From Deltaproteobacteria bacterium (GTDB lineage: Bacteria; DRYD01), in assembly GCA_028276365.1 (NCBI GenBank), contig JAPYWL010000032.1, positions 1-14,757 on the forward strand: 14,757 bases of DNA, read 5' to 3'. Positions 337-11,007 of this stretch are shown piece by piece. The position numbers were made by a program, and so were the translations under genes. Each line of letters starts with the position of its first letter. Positions within the stretch are counted from its first letter, which is position 1. The notes below the pieces were generated by a model. The model worked only from the letters and a program-made list of their open reading frames with translations. It was not told the origin of the DNA and did no database searches.

Positions 337-1539
337 TTAATAATTAATATTTAGTTTATCGTAGATTTTATAGATATATGAGTTTAAATTTTTAAAATTT
401 AATGGATGTAATTTGAGGTTATATATATTATTGTTATATTTTATTTTTAATCCCCATTTTGTTCTTAAAGCTAACATAATTATTTCTTTTATAGCTGTCA
501 AATTATCAATTTCTTCTATGTTTTCAATTGTTTGTTTAAAATAAGAACCTTTATTAAAATTACCAAAATAATTTAGTTGTTTTTTGTTGATTCTGTATAT
601 TTTTTGATTGTTAATAGTTAATTTAGATACGGCAGATGGTCCAAAACCTATATAGTCAAAATAATACCAGTATTTTAAATTATGAATAGAATATTTTTTA
701 TTTTTTGTAAAATTTGAAACTTCATAATGTTCAAAACCTAAATCTTTCAAACTATTATGAATTAGATCATAAAATTCATCGAAATTATTTTTAATATTTT
801 CTATTTCTTTTAGAATATTTTCAAATTGGTGATAAATTACTTTTTTATCGTTATATATATCCAAAGCATAGTATGATATATGATTTATAGGTAAGTTTTT
901 TATTATATTAATATTTTCTATAATGGATTTTGTTTTTTGAAAAGGATATAAGTAAATTAGATCAATAGATATGTTATCAAAATATTTATAAGTTAGGTCT
1001 ATTTTAGATATTATAGAAGATGGATTAGATAATCTTCCTAGGATTCTTAAGGCAAATAAATTAAAACTTTGGACTCCTATACTTACTCGATTTATTCCTA
1101 AATTTTTTAAAGCTTTGAGGTAATTTGAGGTAATCAATTCTGGGTTTAACTCTATTGTTATTTCAGTATTTAAGGAAATTTTGAAATTACTGTAAATAAT
1201 ATCAAATATTTTTTCTAAATAAGATGGATTTATAAGATTTGGAGTACCACCTCCTATATATATACTATTTACAATTTTATCAAAATAAGGATAACCTATT
1301 TTATTAAGATAATTTTTGGAATCTAAAACTTCGTTAATAAGGTTGTTAAAAGATAGATTAACTTTTAGGGGAGTTAATTTAAAAAAATCACAATAAAAAC
1401 AAATTTTTTGGCAAAAGGGAAAATGTATATAAATGCCTAAACTATTAATAGGTAGTGATTTGTTTATAAACGAGGGTAAGTATATGTTAAAAGAATTTAA
1501 TTTAAAGAAATTTCTGTTATTAATTTTAACAGTTTTCAT
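337..1539 (-). CDS. hemW: HemW-like radical SAM protein (oxygen-independent coproporphyrinogen III oxidase-like heme chaperone)
   Basis: A 400-residue radical SAM protein. The CxxxCxxC cluster motif is C43, C47, C50 (in HFPFCQKICFYCDF), followed by GGGTP at about 96-100, an E-x-NPE strand near 130-134, NRVSIGVQSF at 150-159, and the HemW/HemN signatures YEVSNF (272-277) and HNLKYW (286-291) with DYIGFGPSAVS after it. HemW family members bind a [4Fe-4S] cluster and heme and are thought to insert heme into apoproteins; true coproporphyrinogen oxidase activity is not expected without HemN-specific features. Two spots differ from the usual HemW pattern: LGR is followed by LS rather than xH, and the usual GLPGQ is LYPFQ. 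About 34 residues precede the usual GIYIHFPFC beginning. The only in-frame ATG/GTG/TTG before the cluster motif is the ATG at 1537-1539, inside the divergent neighbour; no Shine-Dalgarno site precedes it, so the start is uncertain. Confidence 0.85.
   Translation of the reverse strand: MKTVKINNRNFFKLNSFNIYLPSFINKSLPINSLGIYIHFPFCQKICFYCDFFKLTPLKVNLSFNNLINEVLDSKNYLNKIGYPYFDKIVNSIYIGGGTPNLINPSYLEKIFDIIYSNFKISLNTEITIELNPELITSNYLKALKNLGINRVSIGVQSFNLFALRILGRLSNPSSIISKIDLTYKYFDNISIDLIYLYPFQKTKSIIENINIIKNLPINHISYYALDIYNDKKVIYHQFENILKEIENIKNNFDEFYDLIHNSLKDLGFEHYEVSNFTKNKKYSIHNLKYWYYFDYIGFGPSAVSKLTINNQKIYRINKKQLNYFGNFNKGSYFKQTIENIEEIDNLTAIKEIIMLALRTKWGLKIKYNNNIYNLKLHPLNFKNLNSYIYKIYDKLNINY
1472..1477 (+). 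promoter_or_regulatory. Ribosome-binding site deciding the start of the gene at 1484
   Basis: GAGGGT lies 7 bases ahead of the ATG at 1484. It selects this ATG over the in-frame upstream ATG at 1433, which has no purine-rich site and would put a hydrophilic stretch before the hydrophobic signal/anchor segment. The site itself lies inside the 5' coding region of the opposite-strand hemW-like gene. Confidence 0.75.
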
Positions 1540-2059
1540 ATATTTTATAATTATTAATATTTTTAGTTTAGTCCTTTTTAGTGATAATGAAGTTAATGCT
1601 GGAGTTTTGGTTCCACCAAAAGGGTTTGAGTATAAATATGATCCTGAAGCTCCTAACCCTGTAGATAAAACTGAAGAAGGTAATGAAAAATTAGAAAATA
1701 AACCTAAAAAAATATATTACTATCATCCTGATTTATTTAAAAATTACTATCAAAATAATATACCTAATAAAATTAACAATGATAATGTAAGTGATTATAA
1801 TAACCAATTTGTAAGTACTAATAATGATTATAATGCTGTTCAAAATACTACCCAAAAGCAAATTAATAATTCTTTAACTTTAATGAATTTTTTATTAATA
1901 ATTTCTTCTTTAAGTGTAATTTCATTAATTTTATGGATATTTTATATAAATAATTTAAAACAAAAAGAAGTACAAAATACTATACCTGTATATATGAAGT
2001 ATCCTGATACTAAAAGTAAATTGAAAAAAAGAAGGACTGTTTTTGATGTTAAAAAATAA
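1484..2059 (+). CDS. Hypothetical membrane-anchored protein with N- and C-terminal hydrophobic segments
   Basis: A 191-residue protein starting at ATG 1484 behind a GAGGGT ribosome-binding site. I do not recognise a family. The N-terminus has basic residues (K3, K8, K9) followed by a long hydrophobic stretch at about 10-32, either an uncleaved anchor or a signal peptide with a possible cleavage region near NEVNA/G (about residue 39). The middle (40-130) is hydrophilic and rich in Asn, Tyr, Pro and Lys, and looks unstructured. A second hydrophobic segment spans about 132-155 and is followed by a short tail containing a KLKKRR basic cluster. By the positive-inside rule this suggests two membrane passes, with both ends cytoplasmic and the N/P-rich loop outside. 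It is first in the long + strand run and only 6 bases from the next gene, suggesting co-expression with it. Its first 56 bases overlap the divergent hemW-like gene. Confidence 0.7.
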   Translation: MLKEFNLKKFLLLILTVFIYFIIINIFSLVLFSDNEVNAGVLVPPKGFEYKYDPEAPNPVDKTEEGNEKLENKPKKIYYYHPDLFKNYYQNNIPNKINNDNVSDYNNQFVSTNNDYNAVQNTTQKQINNSLTLMNFLLIISSLSVISLILWIFYINNLKQKEVQNTIPVYMKYPDTKSKLKKRRTVFDVKK

Positions 2060-2065
2060 TATAAT

Positions 2066-2530
2066 ATGAATACTAAAAAAAATGTTAAAAAAAATAAGGA
2101 ATTTGAAATATTTTTACCAGCTAATTTTAATTTAAAAATATTAATAAATGATGAAACTAAAGAAAATATAATTAAGGAGTTAGAAAACTTATTAAATTAT
2201 GTAGAAGAATCTATTAAAAACTATCAAAACAGAAAAGTTTTCAAAATAGGTCAACTTTATAAAGGAACATTTTTACAAGAAATTAAAGATAAAGTAGATA
2301 ATATTCCCTCTAATTTAAGTAGATCAAAAACTATTGAAAATCTTAATAATATCAAAAATAATATTTTAAATTATATTGAATATGTCAAAAATTTAAAAAC
2401 AGGGGATACTATTTTATTAAAGACAGTAAGTGGTTTTGTTAAGATATATAATAATATAAACTTTAAAGAATTAGAGAATGGAATTGATATAATATTAGAT
2501 AAGTGGATTGTTAAAAAAATCAGTCTTTAA
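2066..2530 (+). CDS. Hypothetical protein, helical, no recognised domain
   Basis: A 154-residue soluble protein that I do not recognise. It opens with a Lys/Asn-rich leader (1-11) and is otherwise predicted by eye to be alpha/beta: amphipathic helices at about 32-54 (ENIIKELENLLNYVEESI) and 88-110, and beta-like segments near 56-70 and 112-128. No signal peptide, membrane segment, Cys pair or nucleotide-binding motif is seen. It starts 6 bases after the stop of the membrane-protein gene and ends 12 bases before the next gene. There is no Shine-Dalgarno site before its ATG, so translation is probably coupled to the upstream gene. The tight packing suggests it works with its two neighbours, but the function is unknown. 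Confidence 0.65.
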   Translation: MNTKKNVKKNKEFEIFLPANFNLKILINDETKENIIKELENLLNYVEESIKNYQNRKVFKIGQLYKGTFLQEIKDKVDNIPSNLSRSKTIENLNNIKNNILNYIEYVKNLKTGDTILLKTVSGFVKIYNNINFKELENGIDIILDKWIVKKISL

Positions 2531-2542
2531 ATTGATATTTTT

Positions 2543-3316
2543 ATGAATTTAAAATTAGGGTTGAGTTTATTTGAAATTAAGGATCTTAATTCTATTGATT
2601 TTGGATTATTTTTATATTTACTTAATTATTCTTTTGAACTTAAAAAAAAACACGAACTAAATATATATACCCCTTTTTTTAAAGATACTGATGTGCTAAT
2701 AGTAATTGATAATGAAAAAAATAGAGATTATCTTCATATTTTTCAGTTTTTTTATAAATTAAAAGCTAATGTAAATATTTATAGTATTAATGAGCAAGAT
2801 TTAAGTAAAAATGAACATTTTGACCCTATTTTAACTAATTCCTATTACAAATATATTATTTTATTTTTGTTAAATGATTCTCTTGTATTTAAAATTAAAT
2901 CTTTTGATCATAATATTTACAATAATATATATTTTAATTTAGATAAAAATTTTTTTGCTATATTTTTTATTTTGTCTATTATTTTTAGTTTCTATGAAAT
3001 GATTAAAGATGATACTAAAAAAATTAAAATAGAAATAGATGACGAATTAATAAGTGAAAGTAAATTAGGTTTTTTATACCATCTTGTGGATAAGGAAAAA
3101 ATAAAATCAATAATAAATAACTTATTTTTCAATAAAGAAGAAATTAGCTTTATTGTAAATATTAGTTATGGTACTTTAGCTACTTTCGAAATAAATTTAT
3201 TAAAATTAAAAGATAATCAATCTTATAAGAATAATCAAAGAATAGGTGATATATTATCAAATTTGATACTTCTTATGGAATCTTTTTTTGTAAATTACTT
3301 AAGATATATAATTTAA
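2543..3316 (+). CDS. Hypothetical protein, no recognised domain
   Basis: A 257-residue protein of unknown family. It has a hydrophobic, aromatic-rich N-terminal region, a beta-like VLIVID strand at 51-56, and a hydrophobic stretch at about 137-150 (FFAIFFILSIIFSF) that could be a buried helix or a single membrane segment. It ends with a hydrophobic C-terminal helix (about 236-257). No catalytic motif or metal-binding Cys/His set stands out. It begins 12 bases after the preceding stop with no visible Shine-Dalgarno site, which again suggests translational coupling. It ends in tandem stops (TAA TAA), followed by a 48-base gap before prfA. With the two genes before it, it forms a compact unit of unknown role. 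Alternatives such as a divergent glycosyltransferase-like or chaperone-like protein cannot be supported from the sequence. Confidence 0.65.
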   Translation: MNLKLGLSLFEIKDLNSIDFGLFLYLLNYSFELKKKHELNIYTPFFKDTDVLIVIDNEKNRDYLHIFQFFYKLKANVNIYSINEQDLSKNEHFDPILTNSYYKYIILFLLNDSLVFKIKSFDHNIYNNIYFNLDKNFFAIFFILSIIFSFYEMIKDDTKKIKIEIDDELISESKLGFLYHLVDKEKIKSIINNLFFNKEEISFIVNISYGTLATFEINLLKLKDNQSYKNNQRIGDILSNLILLMESFFVNYLRYII

Positions 3317-3364
3317 TAAATATATAATTTTTTATAAGTTTTATTAAATAAAGAGGGATTTAAG

Positions 3365-4483
3365 ATGTTAAATCTAAAAGACGATAAGGATTTTAGTGTA
3401 TTAAATAAAATATATGAGATAAATAAGAAAAAGATAATAGATTTAGATAAAAAAATAGAAGAAGTAGCAAATAAAGAAGGTTATAATTCTACTAATTATA
3501 TAAATTTGAGTAAAAGTAAAGCAAGATTAAAGGAATTTACAGATAATTATGAAAAATTATCTAAGATAATGGAAGATATAGAATATGCTAAGGAATTAAT
3601 AAATAATGAAAAAGACGAAGAAGCTAAGGAATTTTATAAAAAAGAGCTAAATAATTTAGAAGAAGAGGCTAATAAAATTGAAAAAATTTTATGGGAATTG
3701 ATTTTACCCGAAGAGGATGAAAAAAATATAATAGTAGAAATAAGAGCAGGAACTGGGGGAGAGGAAGCTGCTTTATTTGCTTTCGATTTATTTAGAATGT
3801 ACTCTAAGTTTGCTGATAAAATGAAATTTAAAATAGAAATTTTAGATCAAAATTTTACTGATTTAGGTGGGATTAAAGAAATTGTTTTTGCTGTTAATAA
3901 TAAAAATGCTTATAAATATTTTAAATATGAAAGCGGAACTCATAGAGTACAAAGAGTACCTATAACAGAAGCTAGTGGAAGAATCCATACTTCTACTGCA
4001 ACTGTTATTGTTTTGCCTGAAGTTGAGGAAAAGGAAATTCAAATTAAAGAAGAGGATTTAGAAATGGAAACATTTAAAGCAGGTGGAGCGGGAGGACAAC
4101 ATGTAAATAAAAATGAATGTGCTATTAGATTAAAACATATCCCTACCGGTATCGTAGTAACTTGTTCTGATGAAAGGAGCTTACATCAAAATAGGGCTAA
4201 AGCACTTAGAATTTTAAGAGCTAAATTATTACAATTACAAGAAGAAAAACAAGAAGAGGAGTTAAGAAAACAAAGAAGACAACAAGTAAAAACAGGAGAT
4301 AGAAGCGAAAAAATTAGAACTTATAATTTCCCGCAAAATAGAGTAACTGATCATAGAATAAACTTAACTATCCAAAACTTGGAAGCTATATTGGATGGAG
4401 ATTTATTACCCCTTATTCAAGAACTCCAAAAAAATGAAGCTGTTAATAAAATCCAGGAGTTACTTAATCTACAAGATAATTAA
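3365..4483 (+). CDS. prfA: Peptide chain release factor 1
   Basis: A 372-residue class I release factor that reads UAA and UAG in the ribosomal A site and triggers peptidyl-tRNA hydrolysis. The GGQ catalytic motif is at 243-245 in AGGAGGQHVNKNE. The codon-recognition loop is of RF1 type: HRVQRVPITE with the tripeptide P199-I200-T201 (the PxT motif; PAT or PVT is commoner), followed by GRIHTSTATVIVLPE. This excludes RF2, which carries SPF. The N-terminal 1-110 is helical and charged (domain 1), and the C-terminal KIRTYNFPQNRVTDHRI signature is intact. Length is slightly above the usual 355-360 residues. The start is supported by AGAGGGA at 3352-3358, 6 bases before ATG. No prmC (hemK) methyltransferase gene follows, unlike many bacteria. 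The gene ends in TAA TAA. Confidence 0.97.
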   Translation: MLNLKDDKDFSVLNKIYEINKKKIIDLDKKIEEVANKEGYNSTNYINLSKSKARLKEFTDNYEKLSKIMEDIEYAKELINNEKDEEAKEFYKKELNNLEEEANKIEKILWELILPEEDEKNIIVEIRAGTGGEEAALFAFDLFRMYSKFADKMKFKIEILDQNFTDLGGIKEIVFAVNNKNAYKYFKYESGTHRVQRVPITEASGRIHTSTATVIVLPEVEEKEIQIKEEDLEMETFKAGGAGGQHVNKNECAIRLKHIPTGIVVTCSDERSLHQNRAKALRILRAKLLQLQEEKQEEELRKQRRQQVKTGDRSEKIRTYNFPQNRVTDHRINLTIQNLEAILDGDLLPLIQELQKNEAVNKIQELLNLQDN

Positions 4484-4517
4484 TAAAATAGATAGCTAAA
4501 AATATTATCAATAAAAT

Positions 4518-5324
4518 ATGATTAATAATGAATTCTTAAAATATTTTAAAAGATTTTCTAAAGATTTTCCTGATTATTTTAAAATTAAAAATCCTAATTT
4601 CTTTCTAATGACTAAGTATTACTTAAGAAAACCTACTTTTAGATACTTATTGCAATTATTCTTTAGAAACCCTTTTAGAATTATTTTCAATACTATTTAC
4701 TATTTACCTAAAATTTTTTTTATAAATTTATCAAATAAGATTTTAAAAAAGAAAGAAGATTTTTATAAAGATACTGCTTTAAATAAAGTAATAAACAATT
4801 TTTCTAAAGGCAAAGGGTTTGTAACTATAAGTTATTGTCAAAAGCCCTTAGATTGCCCTGATGGAAGATTTTCTTATAGATGTACTGGAAATTATGAAAG
4901 ATGTAAATCTTGTTTTCTATATGAAGTAAAAACAAGATGTGAGAAATTGGATATTGATTATTATATAGTTTTAGGAGATTTAGATAGTGTTTGGAATATA
5001 TTAAGAAATCAATTTAATAAACATTTATTTGGGTCTTATATTTTAACTACGTGTAATATGGTTTTAAATGTAGTTAAATATATCTCACCGCTATTTGGAT
5101 TTACTGGTATTATTTTGCCTTTTAATAAAGGATCTTGTTTAACTATAGCTGCTTATGAATTATCTGAATTTGGATATAAAAATGTACAAACCGATTTATC
5201 TGATAATAACAAAAAATTATTACTAAATATTCTAAATGAAGCAATAATAATTAAAGAAAATAATAAAAAACTTAAAAATAATCTTATTAATAATAATTTA
5301 ATTAATTTAAATATTATTGAATAA
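4518..5324 (+). CDS. Cysteine-rich DUF116-like protein
   Basis: A 268-residue protein with eight cysteines: C107, C113, C122, C129, C132, C141, C179 and C207. The block ISYCQKPLDCPDGRFSYRC, followed by CKSC and later TTCN and the KGSC segment, resembles the pattern of the DUF116 family (conserved Cys positions likely binding a metal or Fe-S cluster; function unknown). The match is by pattern only and the assignment is moderate. Residues 1-85 are basic and aromatic with hydrophobic patches around 41-70 (a possible amphipathic membrane-associated region), and the C-terminal 35 residues are Asn/Lys-rich low complexity. It starts 34 bases after prfA with no Shine-Dalgarno site. It might alternatively be a separate small cysteine-rich redox or metal protein family. 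Nothing in the neighbours fixes its role. Confidence 0.6.
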   Translation: MINNEFLKYFKRFSKDFPDYFKIKNPNFFLMTKYYLRKPTFRYLLQLFFRNPFRIIFNTIYYLPKIFFINLSNKILKKKEDFYKDTALNKVINNFSKGKGFVTISYCQKPLDCPDGRFSYRCTGNYERCKSCFLYEVKTRCEKLDIDYYIVLGDLDSVWNILRNQFNKHLFGSYILTTCNMVLNVVKYISPLFGFTGIILPFNKGSCLTIAAYELSEFGYKNVQTDLSDNNKKLLLNILNEAIIIKENNKKLKNNLINNNLINLNIIE

Positions 5325-5379
5325 AAGTTAAAAAAGTTTATAAAATAATTAAGAAATTTTAAAAGGAGTTGAATTTAAA

Positions 5380-6282
5380 ATGAAAAATTATAATAAAAAC
5401 TTTATATTATTAATATTTGGATTTGTATTTATTATTTTTTCAATTATTGTTTTTTCTGATACTAAATGGAAATTAAAAATAAAGGGCCAAGAAAAAGAGA
5501 TTTTAACTAATCCTATCATAAAAGGAACTAATGTTTTTGTTGATATTTATGATTTATCTAATTTATTTAATATTGATTATGAAATAAATTTAACAAGAAA
5601 ATATATAATGTTTTATAAAAATATTAATCTATTACCTACTAATACTACTAATAATATTTCTATTACTAGTACTACCAATAATACTACTATCAATACTAAT
5701 TCTTACATAACTAATTTTAGTAATAACTATAGTTTAAATAATGAAAATATTGTGGATTTAAATAAAACTATTATTAAAGAAATTAATTCTATAAAGGATG
5801 TAGTTATAATAAATCCTATAAATGAAATTAAACCACTTTATAAGGATTCTATTGTTTATAAGGATGAATTAAATAATGTAAAAGAAAAAATAAATGATTC
5901 TTTTATTAGTAAACTTAGTATTCCTATTGTAGTAGATAAGAATCAGAATATAAGTAAATTAGATTTAAAGGAGATAACAGAATATTTGAATAAGAAAAAT
6001 GTTTCAGCTGCTATAATACCTATAGTTAGAGCATATGAATATCACGAAAAATCAGAGAATATTATGAATCCTGAAGTACAATTAATTGTAGATTATATAC
6101 TAATAAATAATAAAGGATTTGTTTTATTCTTTGATTCTCAAAATATAATTAGAGGGTTAGCTGTTTTCTCTTCAAGCTCTAATAGATATAGGAAGTCTAA
6201 ATTATTAGATCTTGTTGATTTATCTGTTCATAATTTTATTAATGATTTTTATAGATATAAAGAAATTCTTAGTAAATTTTAG
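5380..6282 (+). CDS. Membrane-anchored/secreted protein with copper-amine-oxidase-N-like domain
   Basis: A 300-residue protein. A hydrophobic segment at about 8-25 after a short basic N-terminus (signal peptide or anchor) indicates export. Residues about 38-80 (NPIIKGTNVFVDIYDLSNLFNIDYE..., ending KYIMFY) resemble the 'copper amine oxidase N-terminal' stalk-type domain widespread in extracellular proteins of Firmicutes and deep-branching bacteria; it is not a catalytic amine oxidase domain. A linker at about 86-122 is almost entirely Asn/Thr/Ser/Ile. The C-terminal part (about 178-300) looks like an independent alpha/beta domain (IPIVVDKNQ, SAAIIPIVRAYEY, GFVLFFDSQ) that I do not recognise. 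AAAGGAG at about 5362-5368 precedes the ATG. The stop is TAG immediately followed by TAA. It lies 36 bases before the PilZ gene, so the two may be co-expressed. Confidence 0.65.
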   Translation: MKNYNKNFILLIFGFVFIIFSIIVFSDTKWKLKIKGQEKEILTNPIIKGTNVFVDIYDLSNLFNIDYEINLTRKYIMFYKNINLLPTNTTNNISITSTTNNTTINTNSYITNFSNNYSLNNENIVDLNKTIIKEINSIKDVVIINPINEIKPLYKDSIVYKDELNNVKEKINDSFISKLSIPIVVDKNQNISKLDLKEITEYLNKKNVSAAIIPIVRAYEYHEKSENIMNPEVQLIVDYILINNKGFVLFFDSQNIIRGLAVFSSSSNRYRKSKLLDLVDLSVHNFINDFYRYKEILSKF

Positions 6283-6318: not shown

Positions 6319-7152
6319 ATGCAAGAACAAAAAAATCATCAAAATGATAATGAAAATAACAAAAATACTGAATTATCTTCTAACAATATAAGTAATAATG
6401 AAATTAATAATAATTTAGAAAATATTGAAGAATCTACAGAGGAATATGAAGATGATAATAATACCCCTGTTTTGGCTGATTTTAAATATACTAAAGCTAA
6501 AGAAAGAAGGAAAGAAGAAAGAAGAGTTTTAGAACCTGCAAGATTAGTTAGAATTGTTATACATTATTCGCAAGATTTTATAGTTGATAAGTGGGTAAGT
6601 GTTGTAGATGTTTCTCGACATGGAATGAAAATTATTTCTGATATTCCTTTAAAATTAGAAGATAATGTAAAAATAGAGTTTTATGTATCTCAGGAACCTG
6701 TAGAAACCCAAGGAAGAATAGCTTGGTGTAAAGAATTGATAAGGAATTCTGGATTATACGCAGTTGGACTTGATTTAGCTAATCTAAAAGAAGCTGATTA
6801 TGAAGTTATTAATAAGTTTTTACTTAATTTTGCTCCATTTGAAGAAAGGAGAGCAGTTAGAGTTAAAAAACCATTTCTAATAGAAGTAAAGTATTTAGAT
6901 GAAGTACAAAGATTTTATACATATGCTGTGGATTTATCTATAACGGGGATGCGAATAATTAATGATTTTGAATTACCTACTGATGAACCTATATTAATTA
7001 AAGCTATACTGGGAAATGAAGAAACAGATTATATTAAAGCTAAAGTAGTATGGCAACAAGAAAAATCTTTTGGTGTTATAATTGGGCTTAATTTTATTGA
7101 AGCTAATAGTGAAGATATTAAAAAAATAGAAAACTTTATTTATTCTTCTTAA
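6319..7152 (+). CDS. Tandem PilZ domain protein (predicted c-di-GMP receptor)
   Basis: A 277-residue protein. After an acidic, Asn-rich leader (1-55) come two PilZ domains. The first (about 60-172) has an Arg-rich RxxxR segment (R64-R68 in ERRKEERR) and D97-V-S99-R-H-G102, matching the (D/N)xSxxG motif. The second (about 174-275) has R177-R181 (ERRAVR) and D205-L-S207-I-T-G210. Both thus keep the residues that bind cyclic di-GMP in characterised PilZ domains. Each ends with the usual strand pattern (GRIAWCKE, AKVVWQQE, then GLDLANL/GLNFIEA). No membrane segment or enzymatic domain is present, so it probably acts as a cytoplasmic receptor/adaptor. A strong AGGGGGA site (6303-6309) precedes the ATG. 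It follows the membrane-anchored stalk-domain gene, a possible but unproven functional partner; the effector (motility, envelope or secretion) is unknown. Confidence 0.87.
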   Translation: MQEQKNHQNDNENNKNTELSSNNISNNEINNNLENIEESTEEYEDDNNTPVLADFKYTKAKERRKEERRVLEPARLVRIVIHYSQDFIVDKWVSVVDVSRHGMKIISDIPLKLEDNVKIEFYVSQEPVETQGRIAWCKELIRNSGLYAVGLDLANLKEADYEVINKFLLNFAPFEERRAVRVKKPFLIEVKYLDEVQRFYTYAVDLSITGMRIINDFELPTDEPILIKAILGNEETDYIKAKVVWQQEKSFGVIIGLNFIEANSEDIKKIENFIYSS

Positions 7153-8764: not shown

Positions 8765-10009
8765 ATGAGAGTAGTTGATTTAGCAGAAAGAGGAAAAATG
8801 TTAGTAGATTGGGCATACAGAAATATGCCCGTAATTAAGCTAATAAGGGAAGAATTTAGGGTAAAAAAACCGTTAGCTTCTTTAAAGATAGGAGCTTGCT
8901 TACATATTACTGCTGAAACTGCTAATTTAGCTATTACCTTAAAGGAGGGTGGGGCTAACGTTATTTTAACCGCTTCTAATCCATTATCTACTAAGCCTGA
9001 AATAGTTGAATATTTAACTAAATATGAAGGAATAGAGGTGCTTTCTAAACCTTCTGAAACTCCTGAAGAGTATTACAGTAATATCAGAAAAGTTATAGAA
9101 AGTAATCCAAATTTATTAATAGATGATGGGGGAGATTTAATAGTAACTATAAATAAAGAATATAAAACTATTGCTTCTAAAATAATTGGTGCTACTGAAG
9201 AAACTACTACTGGGGTTATTAGAATAAATAATTTATATAATGAAGGGAAGTTATATTTTCCAGTTATAGCAGTTAATAATGCTAAAACTAAGCATATGTT
9301 TGATAATAGATATGGCACGGGACAAAGTACTATTGATGGGATATTAAGAGCAACTAATATATTAATAGCAGGTAAGGTAGCTGTTGTTGCTGGATATGGA
9401 TGGTGTGGTAAAGGAGTAGCTTGGAGATTAAAAGGAATGGGAGCAAGGGTTATTGTTTGTGAAGTAGATCCTATTAAAGCTTTAGAAGCTGCTATGGATG
9501 GATTTGAAGTCAAAACTATGGAAGAAGCTTCTAAAATAGGAGATATTTTTATCACAGTTACTGGAAATATTAATGTTATATCTTCTAAGCATATAAATAA
9601 TTTAAAAGATGGAGCTATACTAGCTAATTCTGGACATTTTAATGTTGAAATTGATGTTTCTTATTTAGAATCTAAGAAGATATCAAAGAGGTTAATACGA
9701 GATAATCTACAAGAGTATATAATGCCAGACGGAAGACATATTTATTTAATAGCAGAAGGTAGATTAGCTAATTTAGTAGCAGCAGAAGGGCATCCTGCTG
9801 ATGTAATGGATATGAGTTTTGCTAACCAAGCCTTAGCCTTAGAATATTTAGCTACTAGAAAAAATAAATTACAACCTGGAGTATATGATGTTTTAATAGA
9901 AATTGATAAAAAAGTAGCTAAACTTAAATTAGCTTCTATGAAAATAACTATAGATGAATTAACACCTGAACAAATTAATTATATCAATAGTTGGTCTTTA
10001 GGAACATAA
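8765..10009 (+). CDS. ahcY: Adenosylhomocysteinase (S-adenosyl-L-homocysteine hydrolase), short type
   Basis: A 414-residue NAD-dependent enzyme that splits S-adenosylhomocysteine into adenosine and homocysteine, relieving inhibition of methyltransferases. Visible motifs are: the substrate segment H48-I-T-A-E-T with TASNPLSTK; GATEETTTGVIR at 142-153; KTKHMFDNRYGTGQS at about 174-188 (K175, D180); NAD-binding GYGWCGKG (210-217) with an acidic residue after the second strand (VCEVD); SGHFNVEID at 289-297; and the signature LIAEGRLANLVAAEGHPADVMDMSF. It ends at YINSWSLGT and lacks the C-terminal KPxHYRY tail of the long eukaryotic/proteobacterial form. This is the short form known from thermophilic bacteria such as Thermotoga and from archaea. 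The start has an optimal AGGAGGT site. The neighbouring metG gene is also methionine-related, but no methionine synthase is present here. Confidence 0.96.
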   Translation: MRVVDLAERGKMLVDWAYRNMPVIKLIREEFRVKKPLASLKIGACLHITAETANLAITLKEGGANVILTASNPLSTKPEIVEYLTKYEGIEVLSKPSETPEEYYSNIRKVIESNPNLLIDDGGDLIVTINKEYKTIASKIIGATEETTTGVIRINNLYNEGKLYFPVIAVNNAKTKHMFDNRYGTGQSTIDGILRATNILIAGKVAVVAGYGWCGKGVAWRLKGMGARVIVCEVDPIKALEAAMDGFEVKTMEEASKIGDIFITVTGNINVISSKHINNLKDGAILANSGHFNVEIDVSYLESKKISKRLIRDNLQEYIMPDGRHIYLIAEGRLANLVAAEGHPADVMDMSFANQALALEYLATRKNKLQPGVYDVLIEIDKKVAKLKLASMKITIDELTPEQINYINSWSLGT

Positions 10010-10038: not shown

Positions 10039-11007
10039 ATGGGTAATTTTAAAAAAATAGCAATAATAGATGTTTTTAGTTTATTGTATAGAGCTTTTTT
10101 TGCTATCCCTTTGCTGACTGTTAATAATATTCCAGTTAATGCTATTTATGGGTTTATTAGAATATTATTGAAAATGTATAAAGAATTTAATATAGATTAT
10201 TTAGTTTCATGTGTAGATAAAGGTAGGAGTGGAAGAAATATTTTTTATCAAGAATATAAATCAAAACGTCCTCCATCTACTGATTTATTTAAACAACAAA
10301 TTCCTATTGTTTATGAATTTTATAAATTCTCTAATTTAAAATTAATCTATAAAGAAGGATTTGAAGCTGATGATGTTATTAATACTATTATCCATAAATT
10401 TGTTAATCAAAAAATAAATGAAACTAATTTTATATTTGTTATAACGGGAGATACTGATTTATTACAATTAATTAATAAAAATGTTTTTGTAATTATCTTA
10501 AAAAAAGGAATAAGTGATTATGTATTATTTGATAAACAAAAGTTTTATAAAGAATATGAATTTGATAGTAATTATTATTTATTATATAAGATCTTAGTGG
10601 GGGATAGTTCAGATAATGTAAAGGGAATAGCAGGTATAGGTCCTAAAAAAGCTAAAAATTTTATTAAAAATATTTCAAATTATTTTTCAGAAAAAAAATT
10701 TGAATTTAATGAAGAAAATCTAAATCTTATCTCCTCTTATTTATTAGATTTTTTTAAATTAAGTATTGATTCTGAAAAACTAAAAGAAACACTTAAGCTT
10801 AACTATAACCTTTTAAAACTAAAATTTATAAATGACTTACAAGAGTTTAATTTAGAGGAATTATATATTAAAGATAACTTTATAAATAATGGTTTTATTG
10901 ATTTTTTAAAAAAATACAATTTTAAAAGTATATTACAAGAAGTTCAAAATGATTTTAATATAAATTATTCTAAAAATAATGAAAAGAAACAATTAAAATT
11001 ATTTTAG
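10039..11007 (+). CDS. Stand-alone PolA-type 5'-3' exonuclease (flap endonuclease) with C-terminal clamp-binding motif
   Basis: A 322-residue protein matching the N-terminal 5' nuclease module of DNA polymerase I but without any polymerase domain. Metal-binding acids are visible: D11 (AIIDVFSLLYRAFFA), D60 (SCVDKG), E109/D111/D112 (FEADD), D138/D140 (TGDTD) and D189/D192 (GDSSDN). The helical-arch residues sit in YQEYKSKRPP, and the helix-hairpin-helix clamp is GIAGIGPKKA (196-205). The C-terminal region (GFIDFLKKYNFKSILQ, 285-300) matches the end of the PolA nuclease module; a short Asn/Lys linker follows, then QLKLF at 318-322. Its role would be RNA-primer/flap removal during Okazaki fragment processing or repair, like Bacillus YpcP or E. 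coli Xni. The ATG at 10039 fits the usual family start; a TTG at 9991, inside ahcY, would add 16 unrelated residues. It is convergent with truB across 23 bases. Confidence 0.9.
   Translation: MGNFKKIAIIDVFSLLYRAFFAIPLLTVNNIPVNAIYGFIRILLKMYKEFNIDYLVSCVDKGRSGRNIFYQEYKSKRPPSTDLFKQQIPIVYEFYKFSNLKLIYKEGFEADDVINTIIHKFVNQKINETNFIFVITGDTDLLQLINKNVFVIILKKGISDYVLFDKQKFYKEYEFDSNYYLLYKILVGDSSDNVKGIAGIGPKKAKNFIKNISNYFSEKKFEFNEENLNLISSYLLDFFKLSIDSEKLKETLKLNYNLLKLKFINDLQEFNLEELYIKDNFINNGFIDFLKKYNFKSILQEVQNDFNINYSKNNEKKQLKLF

Follow-up and report, generated by a model that had tools for sequence, protein, structure and literature searches.

A stand-alone FEN-type nuclease with a putative C-terminal β-clamp-binding tail in bacteria without a detected DNA polymerase I

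The window (the whole stretch of DNA analysed, 14,757 nucleotides, lying on contig C92 of a 1.59 Mb genome that is 87% complete) encodes a stand-alone 5′ nuclease that ends in the pentapeptide QLKLF, and the conservation of this tail among orthologous sequences exceeds chance. We consider it probable that this FEN replaces the nuclease domain of an absent polymerase I (Pol I) and that its tail docks in the groove of the DnaN sliding clamp, which would hold the nuclease at a nick or flap for primer removal, the gap being filled by another polymerase. We also lean, at little better than even confidence, toward the broader view that, in bacteria that dismantled Pol I, a C-terminal β-clamp-binding tail was added to the freed flap nuclease repeatedly, by independent events in at least two phyla. 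Okazaki-fragment maturation would thereby have converged on the archaeal and eukaryotic design, in which the clamp recruits the FEN.

Okazaki-fragment maturation in bacteria is classically the work of Pol I with its own nuclease. According to PMC12926913, nearly all bacteria that lack Pol I are known to have a lone FEN, such enzymes accompany the loss of Pol I, and the actinobacterial PolA2 carries a QxxLF clamp motif. In B. subtilis, primers are removed mainly by the separate FenA (PMC10191290, PMC13220808), and DnaN clamps build up behind the fork, where they have been proposed to recruit proteins with clamp motifs (PMC13220808). Pol I is counted among the clamp-interacting proteins, and the same 2022 clamp review lists FEN-1 as a partner of PCNA only (PMC9690074). 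No clamp motif for lone nucleases is mentioned in the available main text of PMC12926913, no recruitment mechanism for them is given in the available parts of PMC12926913, PMC10191290, and PMC13220808, and we found no report of a clamp motif in a lone FEN of a cellular bacterium in open-access main texts. A conserved clamp tag would explain how, in bacteria without Pol I, a lone flap nuclease reaches the nick where it is needed. Such an answer would cover the order to which the window belongs and much of a second, tiny-genome phylum, and would show convergence with the PCNA-FEN1 system.

Gene organization, domains and fold

The nuclease gene and its features in the window are as follows.

10039..11007, + strand: stand-alone FEN-type 5′ nuclease gene, 322 codons plus stop (open reading frame list, PF02739, AlphaFold FEN fold)
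10054..10557, + strand: PF02739 5′-3′ exonuclease N-terminal domain, residues 6–173 (Pfam E value 2.7e-39, invariant acidic residues)
10363-10374, + strand: EADD metal site within the PF02739 domain (invariant acidic residues)
10582..10677, + strand: helix-hairpin-helix/SAM-fold part, PF01367, residues 182–213, carrying D189 and D192 (Pfam match below the curated cut-off, alignment)
10957..10989, + strand: flexible linker after the last helix, residues 307–317 (pLDDT about 55–65, variable among orthologues)
10990..11004, + strand: QLKLF, putative β-clamp-binding motif at the extreme C-terminus (sequence, orthologue conservation)
11005..11007, + strand: TAG stop, immediately 3′ of the motif (sequence)

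The reading frame starts with ATG at 10039, and the longest possible frame would start with TTG at 9991. No polymerase domain was found in the protein by Pfam, and the reading frame ends at QLKLF. Its sequence is similar to the N-terminal domains of Pol I and to stand-alone FENs. In an alignment of seven orthologues, D11, D60, E109, D111, D112, D138, D140, D189, and D192 are invariant across the order, and we take these acidic residues to be the expected metal ligands. The EADD motif is the same in the B. subtilis FEN (PMC10191290). The AlphaFold model has a mean pLDDT of 89 and a FEN fold with a confident core; the folded part stops at the helix of residues 296–306, and residues 307–322 are of low confidence. 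Among the best Foldseek matches are the M. smegmatis FEN (E value 1.6e-16) and E. coli ExoIX (E value 6.8e-15), and the model also matches PCNA-bound FEN1 structures at low similarity. By its domain, its modelled fold, and its metal-site carboxylates, the protein is a member of the bacterial FEN/5′-3′ exonuclease family, with a predicted flap/5′ nuclease activity, and the tail is predicted to be a flexible segment beyond the confident FEN core.

The earlier note on this DNA had read QLKLF as the final five codons of the gene, which is correct: CAA TTA AAA TTA TTT is followed directly by the stop codon. It had also fitted the pentapeptide to the consensus QL(S/D)LF; the published bacterial clamp consensus is indeed QL(S/D)LF (PMC9690074), and QLKLF matches it with a tolerated, non-consensus Lys at position 3.

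Conservation of the C-terminal motif among orthologues

We compared the window genome with six relatives of the same order (seven genomes, completeness 71–90%). Each of the six relatives has an orthologue, all of which are stand-alone nucleases, and their endings are QLKLF (four), QLKFF (one), and QAKLFG (one). Q318, K320, and F322 are invariant in all seven proteins, with overall identity falling to 34%. The linker before the motif ranges from about 35 residues down to one or two, and its sequence is not conserved. The alignment proposed in the earlier note therefore gave the expected pattern of a tail kept in 7/7 proteins, with small variants, behind a linker that differs in both length and sequence. 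In regards to the surroundings of the motif, the note had placed it at the extreme C-terminus after a flexible Asn/Lys linker; the position is right, but the long Asn/Lys linker is confined to this genus, and in the sister genus the motif follows almost directly after the last helix of the nuclease. The codons of the motif vary synonymously among the orthologues, and three different stop codons follow it. These differences indicate that selection acts on the peptide, and a constraint at the DNA level is ruled out by them.

Search for Pol I and for the replication partners DnaN and DnaE

The earlier note had proposed looking for a polA elsewhere in the genome. A profile search for PF00476, the A-family polymerase domain, gave no match in the window genome or in its six relatives, whereas it detected the domain in 10 of 14 reference genomes used as controls. 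The window nuclease is the only PF02739 protein found in its genome, and one match was found in each of the seven genomes.

The clamp was found in six of the seven genomes, the seventh being 71% complete, and DnaE was found in all seven. In the window genome, DnaN is encoded at C82:1610-2722. DnaN carries the segments VATDGSQLA and FPEYKEVIP and a C-terminal MPVRI plus a few residues, which, going by E. coli β, we take to be the lining of the peptide groove. In regards to DnaE of this order (L068-L075), the clamp-site region before the OB domain keeps the LF core without the Gln (SNALF, STLF, ASLF, SSLF, NSLF, and MSLF). Since the DnaE site keeps only this core, the tail of the nuclease is nearer to the consensus than the site of the replicase itself.

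Recurrence of the tail in a second phylum

We searched 386 bacterial genomes with the PF02739 profile and examined how the lone nucleases end. Most of these nucleases have no tail. A complete genome of 0.8 Mb (G065, 100% complete, no PF00476) encodes a lone nuclease that ends in QGSLF, and in the order of this genome all 29 of the 29 complete lone nucleases end in Q-x-x-L-[FIL], a few of them with one or two extra residues. Sampling across the phylum (153 genomes) gave 47 lone nucleases, 31 of which fit Q-x-x-[LMI]-[FLIMV] close to the extreme C-terminus; several more are near misses (e.g. QLSFI and NRLSLF). Counted by family over both samples, the tail occurs in 21/33. The tails include QLSLL, QMSLF, QGSLF, QMDLF, and QTSLF, and the linkers and flanks before them look unrelated. 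Genome sizes in this second phylum are 0.5–2.0 Mb, which suggests that it is Patescibacteria/CPR. Pol I status was tested individually for a minority of its genomes. One of its genomes (G508) has two lone nucleases (L231 and L232), one with a QGSLFS tail and the other very divergent and tail-less.

The control sets gave few matches. Only 1 of 373 other reading frames (at least 180 codons, same loci) matches Q-x-x-[LMI]-[FLIMV], as does 1 of 24 lone nucleases of other bacteria (with family f114 kept separate and G065 excluded; the raw count of 2/25 includes G065). None of 42 lone nucleases on viral contigs matches a slightly looser expression. Shuffled tails gave mean numbers of matches of 0.08 of 7, 0.38 of 29, and 0.54 of 47.

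Lone nucleases without the tail

Lone FENs that lack the tail occur in at least nine families with no Pol I (f18, f31, f67, f77, f88, f157, f170, f185, and f247). The universal rule that a lone FEN implies a clamp tail is thus rejected, and these families indicate that a lone FEN does not have to be tethered to the clamp. Several other candidates were set aside. Family f114 was not accepted as a further independent case, as two of its species end in IQKKLFS and the other two in ILKKLFS, and the Gln is not conserved (L089, L090, L169, and L170). The QLQLL ending in f44 (L080) has a tail-less sister (L098) and is probably due to chance, and f152 (GLFA/GLFR) and f115 (TPTLFS), with LF but no Gln, were excluded from the count.

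The two f38 lone nucleases (L105 in G042 and L106 in G187, no PF00476) carry about 70 additional residues at the C-terminus. The sequence before this extension, QVSLFG in one protein and EPGLFG in the second, may be an internal clamp motif. In f115, Pol I is split (G267, G257, and G119) into a lone nuclease and a separate polymerase reading frame of about 612–616 codons; in G267 the two reading frames are near neighbours (C1:528543-531259).

Origin of the tail

A quick tree built from 136 nuclease domains places the order of the window in a group of its own (support 94) apart from the phylum of G065, and some of the tailed lone nucleases of that phylum are placed among fused Pol I sequences. 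The tree implies 15 architecture changes overall. Forcing the tailed nucleases of both phyla together was weakly disfavoured (AU test, p 0.044, reduced set). Judged from these sequences, the tail was likely gained separately in the two phyla.

Proposed role of the tail and alternative explanations

The predictions that recruitment by the clamp makes at the level of sequence held, and the nuclease very probably belongs to the clamp-binding proteins; that it physically attaches to DnaN and takes part in the maturation of Okazaki fragments is inferred. The C-terminal QLKLF on its flexible tail would insert into the hydrophobic groove of DnaN, and the clamp left on each Okazaki fragment would then hold the nuclease at the nick or flap. 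DnaN clamps would in this way concentrate the tailed nuclease and bring it to the 5′ flap, in the manner of PCNA and FEN1, and there its main job would be to cut away the RNA primer. Gap filling before ligation would fall to another polymerase, probably clamp-bound DnaE. Several observations count against this mechanism, namely the Lys at position 3 in place of the consensus Ser or Asp, the missing Gln in the clamp site of DnaE of the same order, the tail-less lone FENs of the Pol I-less families described above, and the incompleteness of the genomes (71–90%).

That the pentapeptide is a chance or neutral ending is barely credible. In favour of this explanation are the shortness of the peptide and the high frequency of Leu, Lys, and Phe in an AT-rich proteome such as this one, but the ending persists across the seven genomes, at identities as low as 34%, with synonymous codons and different stops, and the control sets and shuffled tails stay near zero. 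From the composition of the protein itself, a C-terminal QLxLF has a probability of about 4e-5, which corresponds to approximately 0.06 such endings in 1500 genes. Searching the genome with a DNA pattern that encodes Q[LF]x[LF]F and continues with T-R-R gave 28 matches; among the 27 of these that were read, the nuclease alone truly terminates an open frame of more than 49 codons, and one match in a 94-codon frame continues with TGG and has no stop. It is likewise highly improbable that Pol I is present and was missed, the nuclease being an accessory FEN such as FenA or Xni. The genomes are incomplete metagenome assemblies, which would leave room for this explanation, but a PF00476 domain would have escaped in all seven with a chance of about 4 in a million if incompleteness is independent, and the single PF02739 match per genome also speaks against an accessory enzyme. 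A Pol I elsewhere in the genome was rejected on the basis of these seven genomes.

Two further explanations accept the selection on the tail and assign it differently. The tail may bind DnaN while the main work of the nuclease lies in repair (mismatch, base or ribonucleotide excision), with most primers removed by RNase H. Many clamp-binding proteins are repair factors (PMC9690074), but a FEN function is present in 99.8% of bacterial genomes, even in those without Pol I, which points to a core role in replication (PMC12926913), and the lone nuclease is the sole PF02739 protein found in its genome; we regard a main role in repair as unlikely. The tail may alternatively be a conserved peptide for another partner, such as a protease adaptor, SSB, or ligase, with no binding to DnaN. 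The Lys at position 3, invariant in the order and outside the clamp consensus, would fit such a partner, but the tails of the second phylum vary exactly along the lines of the clamp motif within unrelated flanks, which makes this explanation decidedly unlikely.

Comparison with known clamp-recruited nucleases

The stand-alone FENs already known (the 'solo Exo5-3' proteins, B. subtilis FenA/YpcP, M. smegmatis FEN, and E. coli ExoIX/Xni) share the fold and family of the window nuclease. They differ from the tailed window nuclease in that the open-access papers searched describe neither a clamp-binding tail nor recruitment by the clamp for any of them. Bacterial Pol I differs in having its nuclease fused to the polymerase.

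The earlier note had drawn an analogy with PCNA-FEN1 of archaea and eukaryotes. The functional likeness stands, as FEN1 is likewise a FEN-family nuclease recruited to a clamp via a short tail peptide (binding to DnaN being, in the present case, a prediction from sequence). The likeness does not extend to the motif. FEN1 uses a PIP box and trimeric PCNA, whereas the window nuclease has a bacterial β-clamp-type motif at its very end; its tail contains no PIP box of the form Qxx[I/L]xxFF, and nothing follows QLKLF. In mechanism, the closest precedent is RNase H of phage T4, a FEN-family enzyme that binds the clamp gp45 via a terminal peptide (PMC3012046). It differs in being a phage protein with an N-terminal PIP-type peptide and a trimeric phage clamp.

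Other genes in the window

Several genes at 1433-6282 of the window have weak or no Pfam matches. The gene at 1433-2059 has a weak match to DUF6945 and that at 2066-2530 a weak match to YlqD; no Pfam match was found for 2543-3316, 4518-5324, and 5380-6282. The product of the gene at 6319-7152 has a low-complexity N-terminus, rich in Asn and Glu, followed by two PilZ domains.
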